From: Methanogenium organophilum
Lineage (GTDB): Archaea; Halobacteriota; Methanomicrobia; Methanomicrobiales; Methanomicrobiaceae
Assembly: GCF_026684035.1 (NCBI RefSeq)
Contig: NZ_CP113361.1
Coordinates: forward strand, 1,364,001-1,428,000
Direction: 5' to 3'
DNA: 64,000 nucleotides
The notes beneath the pieces are model-generated. The model saw only the letters and a list, made by a program, of their open reading frames with translations. It searched no databases and was not told the origin of the DNA. Below are positions 11,270-19,073 of this stretch, one piece after another (within the stretch, counting starts at the first letter, position 1; each line of letters opens with the position of its first letter). Made by a program: the position numbers and the translations under genes.

Positions 11270-11671
11270 ATGGAAGAGAGCGGGCATAGAAAAGATATCC
11301 TGTTTTTTGTCTATAATGTGGACAGCGATATTTTCAGCGAATTAAAGGATTATTTCCATAAAGCTGTTTCTCCGTCTCCGTATGATTGCCCTCTGCGTGC
11401 ACTTACCTACGGAAGTACGGGGATGAAACGGGAATGGAAGAAATTTTTAATGGGGCTTGACTTCAGGGTTGAATTCCTGCACCGGGATGAAATGTCAAAG
11501 AAATACCCTGCGGTGGCAGTCCCCCTTCCGGCTGTTTTTAAGAGTTCGAATCATTCTTTGAATCTGGTATTGAATGCGGGAGAGATCGGGTCATGCCGGG
11601 ATCTTGAGGATCTGATGGATCTGTTGACATATAAACTGAAACATGTTGGTGTTATGCTGAATGTTCATTAA
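11270..11671 (+). CDS. Conserved small cytosolic protein of unknown function
   Basis: A 133-residue soluble protein. Its start (KDILFFVYNVDSDIFSELKDYFHK), the ALTYGSTGMKREWKKFL segment and FRVEFLHRDEM belong to a family I recognise from bacteria and archaea whose members are annotated only as hypothetical or, without basis, as GTPases. The fold looks alpha/beta and thioredoxin-like, with strand-helix units, but no CxxC is present. A TATA-like element about 25 bases upstream of the ATG suggests a leaderless message. It is not linked to an operon. Confidence 0.6.
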   Translation: MEESGHRKDILFFVYNVDSDIFSELKDYFHKAVSPSPYDCPLRALTYGSTGMKREWKKFLMGLDFRVEFLHRDEMSKKYPAVAVPLPAVFKSSNHSLNLVLNAGEIGSCRDLEDLMDLLTYKLKHVGVMLNVH

Positions 11672-11802: not shown

Positions 11803-12930
11803 TTAAATCACATTGACCGAATCCATAAATCTCTCCTTAATCTCAATCGGAGAGAGCGGGATGTTCTTTGCGTCAGAATTTCCCGGTTTCAGGAGAATAT
11901 GAATGAAGCATGGTCCGTCCCCTCTGTTTTGCCATACCTGTTTCAGTTCATCTGCGGTGTGAACTTTTTGGGTATTTGTGATCCCTGCGGTAATGGCATA
12001 CAGTTCCATATCAACGCCACCCCAGGCATGTGTCATCTGGTTGCCGGTACTCCCGAATGCGCCGTTATCAAGACAGACGATGGTCAGATTTGTAGGGTTT
12101 TCTGCAGCGACAACCGGCAGAATTGCTGTTCCCAGAAGACTTCCGTCTCCGTCAAGAACCACGACACCGCGTTTTGTTCCGAGGCTGATTCCAAACCCCA
12201 GCGGCGATGCCTGCGTATAGCTCCCAAGCATGTAGAAGTTTTTATTCCTGTCTGTTGCGGCGTAGAGTTCCTTTCCCGGCACACCGATGTTTGAAACAAC
12301 GCACTCATCATCCAGCAGTTCTGCGATGATGTTGATGGCGTCCGCCCGCCTCATGACAGGATTCCGGAATCTTCGTTTGTATGTGAGTTCAACATCACGC
12401 TGCCGGGAGGGGAATTCGGCTTTTTCAACAGAACACCGGCTGAATTCCCAGACTTTTGGGACAATAAGCGCCACATGCGGACGTGAATTGGTATAGGAAT
12501 CCCTGATTACATCCCTGACGCTGTCGAGTTCAGAAACATCAGAGATGACGGTGTATGGAATTTCCAGTTCATCCAGGAGACCTGGAATATGTATGTTGAA
12601 GGACACCTGGGCAGGGATCTTCTCCTCGTAGACCCCTCTCCAGCTTGCAAGGATGGGAAGCGGCAAATTGTAAAGAACAGTCAGAGACATGATAGCGTTG
12701 AGCATATTTCCGAGGCCGGAACTCTGGATGTGCATCACCGGTTTTTTTCCGGCAAGACAGAGGCCTGCACAGAGTCCGACTCCGTCTTCCTCCCGCATAA
12801 TGGTAATGGTCTCAGAATATGCCTCCAGAAGGGAACAGAAGTCTTTTGTCCTGTCGCACGGAAGAATTACGGTAATATCCACTCCCTCTTCCTTGAGGAT
12901 GGAGAGCACCTGTTCTTCAGGCATGGCCAT
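11803..12930 (-). CDS. comDE: Sulfopyruvate decarboxylase, fused alpha and beta subunits (ComDE)
   Basis: A 375-residue thiamine-diphosphate enzyme that converts sulfopyruvate to sulfoacetaldehyde in coenzyme M synthesis. The N-terminal half (about 1-165) is the ComD-type domain with MREEDGVGLCAGLCLAGKKP and MHIQSSGLGNMLNA. The C-terminal half (about 180-370) is the ComE-type, with the diphosphate-binding LDGDGSLLGTAILPVVAAENPTN motif (GDG...N). In some methanogens these are separate proteins; the fusion is normal in Methanosarcina and Methanomicrobiales. Its start overlaps the end of cysteate synthase by 14 bases, so the two consecutive pathway enzymes are translationally coupled. Confidence 0.92.
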   Translation of the reverse strand: MAMPEEQVLSILKEEGVDITVILPCDRTKDFCSLLEAYSETITIMREEDGVGLCAGLCLAGKKPVMHIQSSGLGNMLNAIMSLTVLYNLPLPILASWRGVYEEKIPAQVSFNIHIPGLLDELEIPYTVISDVSELDSVRDVIRDSYTNSRPHVALIVPKVWEFSRCSVEKAEFPSRQRDVELTYKRRFRNPVMRRADAINIIAELLDDECVVSNIGVPGKELYAATDRNKNFYMLGSYTQASPLGFGISLGTKRGVVVLDGDGSLLGTAILPVVAAENPTNLTIVCLDNGAFGSTGNQMTHAWGGVDMELYAITAGITNTQKVHTADELKQVWQNRGDGPCFIHILLKPGNSDAKNIPLSPIEIKERFMDSVNVI

Positions 12931-14200
12931 TCACCCATGTGTCGATTTCACTCCTGATTTCCTCAACCGGGCTGCCTCCCTTCACGCTGAACATGGGTTC
13001 CACAGGGAAACGGTTCTTATCTTCGGCTACGCGTTTGTATCCACCGCCTGCGATGTTGAGAAGGATGTAATCATCCTTCCCGACAGTACCCGTTTCAACG
13101 GCCTTTATCAACGATGCCACACAGACAGATGCCGCCGGGTCGGGATCGATCTCTTCTGCATCAATAAATATTTTCTCGGCTTCCTTTGCCTGAACATTTG
13201 TTATCCCGTCCATCGTGCCTCCCGTTGCGGACAGTGCATCATACACACCTCCCTTCACTGAGTAGGGGGGATGGCGGTTGGTAAGGACATCGGCATAGAC
13301 CTGACTGATTGCCCGACGGGCATCCGCCATGTCGGTTTCAGGAAGTATTTCCCTTCTGCCTTCCTGCCAGGCTTTCATCATAGGAACAAATGGTTCGTTT
13401 TGTGTAAGATACAGGTGTGGCAGGATTGTTCCAAACCTCCCGTCACCGACAAGACGCATCGAGGCCTCCCATGCGGCAATGCCCCCTGTTCCGCTTCCTA
13501 CAGCCTGGAAATAGTAGTCCGGCAGCCTTCCTGCTGTAACCGCACCGTCCAGCATCACTGTTCCCATGCCGTCCCTGCGGGCGACATTGCGTGCGCCGCC
13601 TTCAGCGACAATTCCCGGTATGGAGCAGATTGCGTTCCCGAATTCAATCGAATCGGTATAATCCCCCTCCACGGTGATCAGGCAGACATTTTCTGCAGGT
13701 GTGGTCGTCCAGAGCCGTTCTTTCGATGATTCGGGCACCACAACCACCACCGGAGCGCCGGTAAGCGCTGAAACCTGACAGAATGCCCGTCCGGTATTTC
13801 CGGCCGAAGATATCTGAAGAATGCCGTGCCCTTTTTCTTTCATCCGGACGGTAGTCGGCAGGGCTTCCAGTTCCTTGAACGAGCATGACTCAATTGCTGC
13901 ACCACGCTCCGGCCAGTAACCCGAAAAACCAATGTAGAGGTTTGAGAGTCCCAGTTCCTGTGCCAGTGCTTCGCTTTTGTAGGTGATTGGCCCGGCATCG
14001 GACGGTAGGTGACCTTCTACCGGAAGCCAGTCGGAGAACCTGAAGATTCCCGGAAGCGGCTGGATGTCCAGTTGTTTTTTCCAGTAGTACGCCCTGATAA
14101 GGCCGGTGCACCCCGTGGGGCATACATTTGTGTACCTGTCAGGGATTTCTTCACTGCAGTCCGGGCATTTGAGTGTATATTTTTCCGTCATATTCATCAC
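12917..14200 (-). CDS. Cysteate synthase
   Basis: A 427-residue PLP enzyme of the threonine-synthase fold that makes L-cysteate from O-phosphoserine and sulfite, the first committed step of the coenzyme M route used by Methanosarcinales and Methanomicrobiales. The N-terminal part has a zinc-ribbon-like set of cysteines (CPDC and CPTGC). The PLP lysine probably lies in FSGYWPERG...SFKELEA, and the SSAGNTGRAF and GSGTGG loops bind substrate and phosphate. True threonine synthase is unlikely because the gene directly precedes comDE, which uses the transaminated product. The frame begins at GTG 14200 with ATGs at 14197 and 14191; none has a strong ribosome-binding site. The three-gene ABC/GTPase/Fe-S module lies 118 bases upstream on the same strand. 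Confidence 0.88.
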   Translation of the reverse strand: MMNMTEKYTLKCPDCSEEIPDRYTNVCPTGCTGLIRAYYWKKQLDIQPLPGIFRFSDWLPVEGHLPSDAGPITYKSEALAQELGLSNLYIGFSGYWPERGAAIESCSFKELEALPTTVRMKEKGHGILQISSAGNTGRAFCQVSALTGAPVVVVVPESSKERLWTTTPAENVCLITVEGDYTDSIEFGNAICSIPGIVAEGGARNVARRDGMGTVMLDGAVTAGRLPDYYFQAVGSGTGGIAAWEASMRLVGDGRFGTILPHLYLTQNEPFVPMMKAWQEGRREILPETDMADARRAISQVYADVLTNRHPPYSVKGGVYDALSATGGTMDGITNVQAKEAEKIFIDAEEIDPDPAASVCVASLIKAVETGTVGKDDYILLNIAGGGYKRVAEDKNRFPVEPMFSVKGGSPVEEIRSEIDTWVNGHA

Positions 14201-14318: not shown

Positions 14319-14936
14319 TCAAAGGCGTATATCCTCCACCCGGATGTGCATCCCTGACGACTTGTTCAGGATCATATTTACAACACCTGTGTGAGCGAGA
14401 TACATCATACAGAATCCCGGCAGGAATGTCTGTCTTTTGCCAAACACAGGTTCATGGTTTACTGTTTTTGCAATGCCTTCAAACCCGCTTATGTGGTATG
14501 CTTCGAGATCTTTGTATTCCCGTCCCCGTGAGAATTGCGGACCAACCACGTGGGTGGTTATTACCCCGGTGACGGGGGACGCGTCAATCACTTTCAGGAC
14601 ATGCTGAACCGGACATCCGGCACCCATCGGCCTGCCAACCACGATGTCCCCTTCTTTAATATCCCACTTTTCAACAAGATCCGGCCGGAACGGAACAATT
14701 ATTTTCCTGGCTGAAACTTCGCCCGGAAGAGGTTCAAGGATGAAATCATATGGCGTCCCATGGATGTCAGAACCGGAATATATTGCATCATGGGTGTTTT
14801 TGTTTCCAGATTCGCATGGAGTGTAGAATGGGCAGTCCCCGTATGATTTTTTCCCCTCTTCGATATACGCAAGAAAATCTGCACATGACTTCGCACCGCA
14901 TGCACCACAGTCTTTTCCCGGGGGTGTCCAGTCCAT
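14319..14936 (-). CDS. Fe-S protein with RnfB/CFeSP-type 4Fe-4S domain
   Basis: A 205-residue soluble protein. Residues about 5-40 carry CGACGAKSC and a further cysteine in YGDCPFY (C-x2-C-x4-C-x16-C). This is the 4Fe-4S domain found at the start of RnfB and of the large corrinoid Fe-S protein subunit. The rest (about 60-205) contains FRPDLVEKWDIKEGDIVVGRPMGAGCPVQH and FLPGFCMMYLAHTGVVNMI, with two more cysteines, and is not a domain I recognise. The gene begins 3 bases after the HypB-like GTPase and is the third gene of a compact module. A role in metal or cofactor insertion or electron delivery is likely; the target is unknown. Confidence 0.7.
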   Translation of the reverse strand: MDWTPPGKDCGACGAKSCADFLAYIEEGKKSYGDCPFYTPCESGNKNTHDAIYSGSDIHGTPYDFILEPLPGEVSARKIIVPFRPDLVEKWDIKEGDIVVGRPMGAGCPVQHVLKVIDASPVTGVITTHVVGPQFSRGREYKDLEAYHISGFEGIAKTVNHEPVFGKRQTFLPGFCMMYLAHTGVVNMILNKSSGMHIRVEDIRL

Positions 14937-14939
14937 ACT

Positions 14940-15647
14940 TTAATCCCCCCGATAGAGGTAATCCGCCCCGTCAAGTTTTCTGATCACGCCGAAATGGTTT
15001 TGCCATCCGATATCGGTCTTGCCAATGCAGATCGTGCACACCCCAAGTGGCGGGGCGCCCCTGAGCGTAATCGTGTCGGGGTTGTTGATTTCCGGGTACT
15101 CTTCAATTGCACGCAGGAGATACCGCATTCCTGTTCCCTGCACGGCGTTGGCTTCGATGATGTCGAGATCCCCGTTCACTTCCCTGATACGCTCACGGAA
15201 TACCTCTTTTTCGGCCTGTGACACCAGATCAATCCGTGTAACGACCGCCATATCGGCAAGGGCTATCATCGGCGCCATCTTCAGGGGTGTGTTTATGCCG
15301 TTAACCGCGCTGGTCACGACAATGCCCAGTGATTGTGTGGTATAGGGAGAACACCTCAGGCAGAGTCCGGCGCTCTCGACAATAAGGATGTCCGCCTGTT
15401 CTTCCTTTGCCCATCCGATTGCATCTTTCATAACCATGACACTTGCATGATCGGGACAGAGATCCCCCGAGTAGACTTTCTTTGTCGGGATGCCGAATTC
15501 CTGTTTCAGTTCCTCATCTTCAAATGCCCGTGTGACATCAATTTTAAGGTATGCGATTTTTTGGGAATCACCAAGATTAGTGATTATCTGTTTTACAACG
15601 GCGGTCTTCCCGCATGAGGGCGGCCCGGCAATGACGATCAGTTTCAT
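14940..15647 (-). CDS. HypB/UreG-like metallochaperone GTPase
   Basis: A 235-residue P-loop protein of the SIMIBI class. The P-loop is AGPPSCGKTAVV near the N-terminus. A DILIVESAGLCLRCSPYTTQ segment stands where HypB and CobW have their switch and metal-site residues, and TRIDLVSQ provides the guanine-specificity region (usually NKxD, here TRID). Cysteines CLRC and CTIC, each C-x2-C, could bind metal or bridge a dimer. HypB and UreG use GTP to load nickel into enzymes. The gene's ATG overlaps the stop of the ABC ATPase gene (ATGA), and it is followed after 3 bases by the Fe-S protein, so the three products probably work as one machine. Confidence 0.72.
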   Translation of the reverse strand: MKLIVIAGPPSCGKTAVVKQIITNLGDSQKIAYLKIDVTRAFEDEELKQEFGIPTKKVYSGDLCPDHASVMVMKDAIGWAKEEQADILIVESAGLCLRCSPYTTQSLGIVVTSAVNGINTPLKMAPMIALADMAVVTRIDLVSQAEKEVFRERIREVNGDLDIIEANAVQGTGMRYLLRAIEEYPEINNPDTITLRGAPPLGVCTICIGKTDIGWQNHFGVIRKLDGADYLYRGD

Positions 15648-16423
15648 GTAAATGCCCGGTCACACATCATTTCCCCTGCACGGATCTGTTCACGCATCCG
15701 GTACATGATTCTGTCAAGCTCGATCACTTTTTCAAGCGCCTTTTTTTCACTTCCGTTTGGTTCGAGGACTTTATGTACCGCGCCATCTTTCATGACAATT
15801 CGCCTGTCGGACATGAGGGATACCATTGGATCGTGGGTGACAAAAATCAGGGCTTTTTTATACTTTTTCAGGGTCTCTATTACTCTGTCTTTGAAGATTC
15901 CCGCATTTTCAACCTCATCAAGAAGAATGAGGGGAGTGTTGCTGATCATTATTGCATCGGCAACCATGAGCGATCTGGTCTGGCCTCCAGAAAGTGCAGT
16001 CATCTTCACATCCGGACGGATTTTTTCGCCTGTGAACTCATTTGCAAGGTCAATTGTCTTTCCTGCTATTTCTGCCTCAATAATTCCACGTGACTTTATG
16101 TGCATCTCAAGAAATTCGCGTACCTTCAGGTCCGCAAGGCATTTTGTATTCTGGGTTATGAGTGCCACCGGCTTTTTTGCAGGGTCGCGGATATATTCTT
16201 CCGGCGGTTGCTCCCCGTTTATCAGTATGGTTCTTCGGGTAACAGTGTCATTGGCGGCAAAAATTTCAATGTCATTTATGAACGCACTCTTTCCTGAACC
16301 GGTTGGTCCGACTATTGATATTGTGTCACCGGGCCGTATGACAATTTCATCAAAGTTCTCCGTTTCTCCCGAACGGTTCCTTCCGGGCAGAATTGTGATC
16401 TCCCTGATTGTCTCAGAGTTCAT
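15644..16423 (-). CDS. Soluble ABC-type ATPase
   Basis: A 259-residue ATPase with Walker A GPTGSGKSA, a signature LSGGQTRSLM, Walker B LILLDEVENAG and a switch histidine in LIFVTHDP. There is no membrane segment and no permease gene nearby, so it is likely a cytoplasmic mechanochemical ATPase, as SufC and the methyl-coenzyme M reductase activator AtwA are, rather than a transporter. The replacement of the common DEPTxxLD by DEVENAG is unusual. ATG at 16423 is preferred, with AGGTG 12 bases upstream; GTG at 16438 is possible. It is the first gene of the module and has its own promoter region upstream. Confidence 0.72.
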   Translation of the reverse strand: MNSETIREITILPGRNRSGETENFDEIVIRPGDTISIVGPTGSGKSAFINDIEIFAANDTVTRRTILINGEQPPEEYIRDPAKKPVALITQNTKCLADLKVREFLEMHIKSRGIIEAEIAGKTIDLANEFTGEKIRPDVKMTALSGGQTRSLMVADAIMISNTPLILLDEVENAGIFKDRVIETLKKYKKALIFVTHDPMVSLMSDRRIVMKDGAVHKVLEPNGSEKKALEKVIELDRIMYRMREQIRAGEMMCDRAFT

Positions 16424-16439
16424 ATCTATAGTAAACACC

Positions 16440-16464
16440 TATTGGATATTATGATTGTCCAATA
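16440..16464. promoter_or_regulatory. Inverted repeat upstream of the ABC/GTPase/Fe-S module
   Basis: TATTGGA and TCCAATA form a perfect 7-base inverted repeat with an 11-base spacer. It lies 16-40 bases upstream of the ABC ATPase start, and a TATA-like TTTATACATATATGG lies about 25 bases further upstream on the minus strand. This is a plausible operator for a repressor of the module. Confidence 0.4.
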
Positions 16465-16744
16465 TGGTGCAATTAATTGGCCATATATGTATAAATTTTG
16501 AAAAAATCTGACATATTGGGGAATGCTTGCCCTAAATTCTAAAAGAGTTCGTTTGTCACTTCCTGCAAAATATCTTCATGGAGACGCAGGGACCCCGATG
16601 ATATGCATTGCAGACGATTCCTTCGCATGTGTGAATCCCGTATTAACGGTATAAAATCATCCCGGAAAACCTGAAGATGGCCATCCTGCATCAGAAAAGA
16701 GATCTAAAGTTCCGTGAAAAAATAATGAAAGGGTTTTGTTTCTT
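16465..16744. other. Intergenic stretch between the module promoter and mdh
   Basis: About 280 bases that separate the end of mdh from the promoter of the ABC ATPase gene on the same strand. Apart from the TATA-like element near 16490 I see no gene, repeat or RNA. Confidence 0.4.
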
Positions 16745-18038: not shown

Positions 18039-19073
18039 TTATGGAATAAAAACCTCGCCGCCTGTCTGTTTCTTCCACTGGCGAATTGCGGCTGCCATCC
18101 TGACCCGGTTATCCTTGCCAAAGAGGTCGATGACGGTGAGATCCACTCGTTTTGGGAGAACGTCTGTGAGGCGGTTCATATCACCCCACCATACTTCGTA
18201 GTGTTTCCCATCCCCGAATGCATCGGCCGCCTTCAGGGGCTCTTTTCTCACGGGAGCTCCTTGTACGTCCTCGTAGGTGATATGTATCTCTACGCTCTCC
18301 AGTCCCAGTGCGTCGCGGTTGATATCCAGATTAACGGCCGCCCAGTATGCCGCATATCCCCAGGCGTCGTTCATGATGATTTGTGGGATGTCATATTGTC
18401 CTGCGGTAATGCCGAGTGTCCCGGCCCCGCACGCCGCATCGACAAAGACCTCAGGTTGATGCCGTATCACTTCGGTTGCAGTGGTGACCAGTTTTGGGTC
18501 AAACCCCCGGGGATACTCGATGTGCGCACAGGACTGCTGCATAAATACGGTGATCGGTGCCTCACCTGTTTCAAAGATATTGGCCCTGACGTCGCACCCG
18601 GCAAGGGGTTTGTGGGTATGGTATTCAGGAAGGATAGCTTCCATTTCTGCAATGCCGGGGACCGTCCCCGTATCGTGCACTACTCCTTTGATCTCCGGGA
18701 TCTCTGCCATGATGCGTTCGGCAGCTGGCAGGGTGACTGAACGAGAGAGAAAGACCATGGAAGCGTTTCCCAGGTGGGGTGGTTCAGTGAGTGCCACCCC
18801 CGGGTGGATGAGAGGGATACCTGCTGCCATGACGGGGGCCGTTGCGGGGAGATCGCCTGCTTCTGCCATAATGGTCCAGCAGTCTGCCACGACCTCGTCC
18901 AGAGGACGTTTTCCACAGGCGGGGCATGGCGCTTTTCTGCGAAATGACGGAGGTGAACGTTTATCGAGAATGGTGGTCCTGCATGAAGGACAGGGGAGAT
19001 GGCCTGTTTCCCGCTGCAGAATTATTTCTGTTGCGTTTTCGAGGCAGGAGCCGCCACAAACCGGGCATTTCAT
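18039..19073 (-). CDS. Zinc-ribbon protein with methyltransferase-like domain
   Basis: A 344-residue protein with CPVC, CPSC and CPAC zinc-ribbon pairs in the first 55 residues. The rest includes FVDAACGAGTLGITAG, which matches motif I of class I SAM-dependent methyltransferases, preceded by a DVRANIFETGEAPITVFMQQS segment and followed by TVIDLFGKDN in the position of motif IV. The usual DPPY or NPPY substrate motif is missing, so it may act on a small molecule or only bind SAM. I do not recognise a characterised homologue. The stop lies 13 bases from the 5' end of the SRP RNA, so the SRP promoter must overlap the gene's 3' end. It is divergent from the metallophosphoesterase gene. Confidence 0.65.
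   Translation of the reverse strand: MKCPVCGGSCLENATEIILQRETGHLPCPSCRTTILDKRSPPSFRRKAPCPACGKRPLDEVVADCWTIMAEAGDLPATAPVMAAGIPLIHPGVALTEPPHLGNASMVFLSRSVTLPAAERIMAEIPEIKGVVHDTGTVPGIAEMEAILPEYHTHKPLAGCDVRANIFETGEAPITVFMQQSCAHIEYPRGFDPKLVTTATEVIRHQPEVFVDAACGAGTLGITAGQYDIPQIIMNDAWGYAAYWAAVNLDINRDALGLESVEIHITYEDVQGAPVRKEPLKAADAFGDGKHYEVWWGDMNRLTDVLPKRVDLTVIDLFGKDNRVRMAAAIRQWKKQTGGEVFIP

Follow-up and report, generated by a model that had tools for sequence, protein, structure and literature searches.

Genes for an ATPase, a Ni2+-binding GTPase and a COG2000 Fe-S protein are often found beside coenzyme M (CoM) genes in methanogens, where their role is described as unknown (Chadwick et al. 2025, PMC12068725, Fig 2 legend). 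The same work showed that MMP16 acts as the primary CoM synthase in M. acetivorans (PMC12068725). Two unrelated enzymes that fix sulfite have been described: phosphosulfolactate synthase (ComA), which joins sulfite to phosphoenolpyruvate, and cysteate synthase (CS), which forms cysteate from sulfite and phosphoserine (PMC3087415, PMC12713407). The origin of the sulfite used for CoM is stated to be unsettled (PMC3448663, PMC6286981). In bacteria, a function in phosphosulfolactate synthesis has been inferred for the ComA operon yitCD of B. subtilis and for the yitBA-yisZ genes (PMC517825), and H. modesticaldum reportedly has neither cysN nor cysH and depends on reduced sulfur (PMC7143216).

We analyzed a window of 64,000 nucleotides from the genome of Methanogenium organophilum that contains the three genes (here the module, or trio) directly upstream of two genes of CoM synthesis. 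The features are, in the direction of transcription:

16439..16520 (-), AT-rich upstream region with a TATA-like TTTATACATA and short inverted repeats (from the sequence)
15644..16438 (-), soluble ABC ATPase (PF00005, 54 bits; 36-row alignment with invariant motifs)
14940..15647 (-), HypB/UreG-type (SIMIBI) GTPase (PF02492, structure model and alignment)
14319..14936 (-), Fe-S protein (COG2000, a label borrowed from PMC12068725; PF04060, 46-row alignment, AlphaFold2 model and fold searches)
12917..14200 (-), cysteate synthase, CS (TIGR03844, 656 bits, cut-off 325)
11803..12930 (-), fused sulfopyruvate decarboxylase comDE (TIGR03846, 232 bits, and TIGR03845, 202 bits, both over cut-off)

The ABC ATPase and GTPase genes overlap by 4 bases, and the Fe-S gene starts 3 bases past the GTPase gene. 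A gap of 118 bases separates the Fe-S gene from CS, which overlaps comDE by 14 bases. An earlier note on this DNA had described a tight three-gene cassette upstream of CS and comDE on the same strand, and both the coordinates and the family searches bear this out. The AT-rich region is likely a promoter. The inverted repeat that had been seen before the first gene is present as short AT-rich repeats; however, these are not conserved in Methanogenium. Two adjoining ORFs, at 18039-19073 (344 aa) and 11270-11671 (133 aa), have no Pfam or NCBIfam match. The locus corresponds by description to that of Chadwick et al. in both its gene types and its context, and the module is therefore not newly seen (PMC12068725). 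However, that account is confined to methanogens; the bacterial carriers, the link to ComA and the connection with sulfite are added here.

The ABC ATPase contains the motifs of a nucleotide-binding domain: a Walker A motif (GPTGSGKS), an LSGGQ signature, the sequence DEVENAG past Walker B, and an H-loop (VTHDP). The unusual end of Walker B, already remarked upon in the earlier note, is near-invariant as DE[VI]ENAG across 36 orthologues. None of the loci read shows a conserved permease gene next to the module, although a permease partner may be encoded elsewhere. An apparent ComA-ABC fusion in one locus (L064) is not a fusion, as the join spans N bases.

The GTPase matches PF02492 (CobW/HypB/UreG) with 53 bits, over the cut-off, and its structure model, in which the C-terminal 35 residues are of low confidence, matches Ni-UreG (5xkt, Z 23.3) and HypB (2hf8, Z 21.6). 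It therefore shares the SIMIBI fold and P-loop of the HypB/UreG nickel metallochaperones, together with a Cys/His motif. Invariant among 36 sequences are C64-P-D-H67, C96xxC99, C204xxC207 and H218, so that the cysteine pairs noted previously hold in all of them. This set is a plausible metal motif, and we take CPDH to be comparable to the CPH motif of UreG. However, the protein differs from HypB and UreG in its extra invariant CxxC pairs, in its score of 66.7 bits against the HypB equivalog (TIGR00073, NCBIfam hypB), which is under the cut-off of 121.2, and in that none of the loci read links it to hydrogenase or urease genes.

The Fe-S protein begins with a [4Fe-4S] domain of the CFeSP type, for which PF04060 scores 34.7 bits against a cut-off of 23, confirming the RnfB/CFeSP-type domain assigned from the first reading. 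Its four cysteines (C10, C13, C18, C35) are invariant in the 46-row alignment. The AlphaFold2 model has a pLDDT of 91.5, and the N-terminal domain superimposes on the CFeSP cluster domain at 0.7 A over 33 residues. AcsC, the corrinoid/iron-sulfur protein, and the N-terminus of RnfB carry the same small four-cysteine domain. However, in contrast to AcsC, no corrinoid-binding domain is found in the 205 residues of the module protein, where PF04060 is the sole match and similarity extends only over about residues 1-46. The remainder is a beta-rich C-terminal domain in which C108, H112, C176 and H182 are invariant in the same alignment. Fold searches gave no confident match of this domain to a solved structure, and the best hit, to a small barrel at Z 5.8, was not usable.

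The trio behaves as a unit. ABC ATPase and GTPase genes are present in 88 of 90 Fe-S gene loci, a co-occurrence far beyond chance, and the three proteins are inherited together, with distance matrices that correlate at r=0.79-0.89. A profile search with the Fe-S protein identified relatives 51-82% identical in Methanomicrobia, heliobacteria, Pelotomaculum, Desulfotomaculaceae and Thermincola. A new finding is that the trio is also conserved in Firmicutes without MMP16 or comDE over cut-off, among them heliobacteria, Pelotomaculum and Thermincola: MMP16 exceeds the cut-off in 0/28 module-bearing bacterial genomes and comDE in none of the bacteria checked. The earlier note would have taken a module found mainly outside CoM-producing organisms as refuting its proposal, and the wide occurrence that we find in organisms without a CoM pathway goes part of the way towards this. 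Methanogen-type clusters also appear in records named Nanohalarchaeota, Bacilli and Nitrospirae (L036, L102, L110), which are probably misbinned contigs.

Several other genes are found near the trio. Cysteine desulfurase genes lie near or inside the module in 8/90 loci; in one (L120, genome G009) the gene is within the module, and in another (L065) NifS, NifU and ThiF genes are upstream. These genes are a hint that reduced sulfur is the input. In 18 Methanomicrobiales loci (including L035, L037, L040 and L099) a conserved gene for an HTH protein, likely a regulator, is divergent and just upstream of the ABC gene. A gene for an NMT1-like binding protein is near the module in L086, L090, L097, L099, L114 and L120.

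Archaeal sampling covered Halobacteriota, with Methanobacteriota and Methanococci outside the sample. Among 197 Halobacteriota genomes the module is present in 48, CS in 84 and both in 45 (p=1.5e-17; this and the other p values given here are too small, since related genomes are not independent). CS lies within 2 kb of the module on the same strand in 41 of the 48. The tie to CoM genes proposed earlier is real and statistically strong. Where module, MMP16 and CS are parted, 11 genomes (about four lineages) have CS near and MMP16 away, and 2 have the reverse. One genome (G079, f22) has the order CS-ABC-GTPase-FeS separate from ComDE-MMP16 (L117, L118). In Halobacteriota the module tracks CS, even with MMP16 elsewhere or absent. 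The module is missing from 39/84 CS-positive archaea, including Methanosarcina-like genomes. Conversely, a genome from the order of M. organophilum (G183, L115) has kept the trio without CS, MMP16 or comDE over cut-off.

In bacteria the companion is ComA, present in 25/25 Firmicutes genomes with module loci. A Bacillota-type phylum sample (n=199) contains 17 genomes with the module, 76 with ComA and 16 with both (Fisher p=8e-7), so that ComA occurs in 16/17 module genomes vs 60/182 others. ComA is directly upstream of the module in four loci (L057, with the order ComA-ComB-ABC-GTPase-FeS, L063, L064 and L068) and within 7 kb in three more (L061, L062, L074). A PF03601 membrane protein gene adjoins ComA in one module-negative Firmicute (L156), and similar-looking genes occur in L158 and L163. 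Three loci (L071, L079, L088) place the trio and an NAD-dependent SDR in a pseudaminic-type nonulosonic-acid cluster (PseB, NeuB/PseI-like) with no ComA; the product is possibly a sulfur-bearing sugar. A reading of this SDR as a sulfoquinovose synthase found little support: of two copies scanned, one gave only 30 bits vs a cut-off of 575.

ATP sulfurylase is the usual start of sulfite production. Within ComA genomes it is found in 1/16 with the module vs 28/60 without (p=0.003), and the module thus tends to replace it. The complementarity is weaker when CysH/CysD-type genes are added (4/16 vs 33/60, p=0.048), and the PAPS reductase family alone proved too broad a marker, with a weak signal. 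One module-negative genome (G348) has CysH and ATP sulfurylase genes close to ComA. Many ComA-positive Firmicutes have neither module nor ATP sulfurylase; together with the CS-positive archaea without the module, they mean that other routes to sulfite must exist. The yitBA-yisZ products of B. subtilis are enzymes of the sulfate-to-sulfite pathway. The bacterial loci resemble that system in pairing ComA-type genes with partner genes inferred for phosphosulfolactate synthesis (PMC517825). However, sulfite there comes from sulfate activation, whereas the anaerobes examined here mostly have the trio and no ATP sulfurylase.

These data show an association of the module with sulfite-fixing enzymes within the sampled groups. 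Since the enzymes that accompany it, CS and ComA, are unrelated and have sulfite as their common substrate, the job of the trio is probably sulfite supply in cells living without oxygen. We consider it an even proposition that the sulfite from which strict anaerobes build sulfonates is produced or brought in by the module, with a chemistry that we infer as follows. The Fe-S protein would be the catalytic or sulfur-carrying metalloprotein, in which C108/H112/C176/H182 may bind a second metal in addition to the [4Fe-4S] cluster. Loading of this second metal would fall to the HypB/UreG-like GTPase, and the ABC ATPase would give energy or conformational drive. Sulfide, or persulfide from cysteine desulfurase, would be turned into sulfite and passed to CS or ComA. 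The fuller proposal, an ATP-/GTP-dependent anaerobic sulfite-forming system of a new type that is common to methanogens and Firmicutes, has the Fe-S protein as catalyst and is a missing sulfite source for CoM and sulfolactate, is tentative and falls well short of an even chance. Against a sulfite-forming role, going from sulfide to sulfite takes the removal of six electrons, which is hard on energetic grounds for cells of this kind. The G183 genome, the Methanosarcina and nonulosonic-acid loci, and phylogenetic non-independence hold our confidence in sulfite supply at about even.

It is also conceivable, if on balance unlikely, that the module does no more than mature, or activate by reduction, another metalloenzyme encoded elsewhere, such as a siroheme protein working in reverse, and that this enzyme makes the sulfite. 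HypB/UreG-type GTPases are established maturation factors, and the fold match of the module GTPase is strong. Siroheme proteins have themselves been suggested as a possible sulfite source (PMC3448663, PMC6286981). However, NIR_SIR proteins occur in most genomes with and without the module alike, with no complementary pattern, and no fourth enzyme is conserved with the trio across contexts in the loci read.

The earlier note had suggested that the module could supply or assemble the conversion of sulfoacetaldehyde to CoM, on the premise that this step lacks a proven enzyme. This specific proposal is not supported. The premise is out of date, as MMP16 (ComF) is the CoM synthase that fills the step (PMC12068725), and it is encoded in this genome, with about 192 kb between it and the module. 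Adjoining MMP16 there (L113, C1:1183811-1186291) is another comDE-like gene, which shares 53% identity with that of the window and brings the genome to two comDE copies. None of the module proteins matches TIGR03287 (MMP16/ComF coenzyme M synthase), and the module's bacterial carriers without MMP16 or comDE speak against such an activity. The note's other suggestion, metal loading into another enzyme, is plausible as metal handling in general, and brought up to date the note's idea would have the module load or energize MMP16 for the last CoM step. MMP16 is within 6 kb in 32/48 module genomes, many of which have it on the same strand after a downstream gap of about 55 bases, and some Methanosarcina (L101, L106) have the module beside a second MMP16 with no adjacent CS. 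However, MMP16 is over cut-off in none of the 28 bacterial carriers, Methanoregula has the module with CS and ComDE and no adjacent MMP16, MMP16 occurs in many genomes without the module, and the M. jannaschii MMP16 reportedly functions in E. coli (PMC12068725). COG1900 also fails as a shared partner, with no match at E 1e-20 in 10/28 bacterial carriers, including the three heliobacterial genomes. We therefore regard a role in the MMP16 step as improbable.

We give similarly little credence to a module that handles sulfite or sulfonates, by sensing, trafficking or detoxification, rather than making sulfite. The same co-occurrence data would fit, as would the divergent HTH regulator and the NMT1-like binding protein in several archaeal loci. 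However, the presence of two enzymes that hydrolyze nucleotides, together with two conserved sets of Cys and His residues, suggests metal chemistry driven by energy instead of sensing, and the ABC ATPase has no accompanying permease gene in the loci read. That the trio is a general metal-insertion cassette lying near these genes by lineage history only is very improbable: the tested clades are related, and the pattern has exceptions in G183 and the nonulosonic-acid loci, but the linkage is physical in independent contexts, in two domains and with two unrelated sulfite enzymes.

CoM and sulfolactate need sulfite, methanogens live on sulfide, and the source of the sulfite is stated to be unsettled. 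If the trio does supply sulfite, this question would become open to testing by genetics, and a recurring gene set would have its first role. Archaea and bacteria with unrelated sulfite-fixing enzymes would then share one solution.
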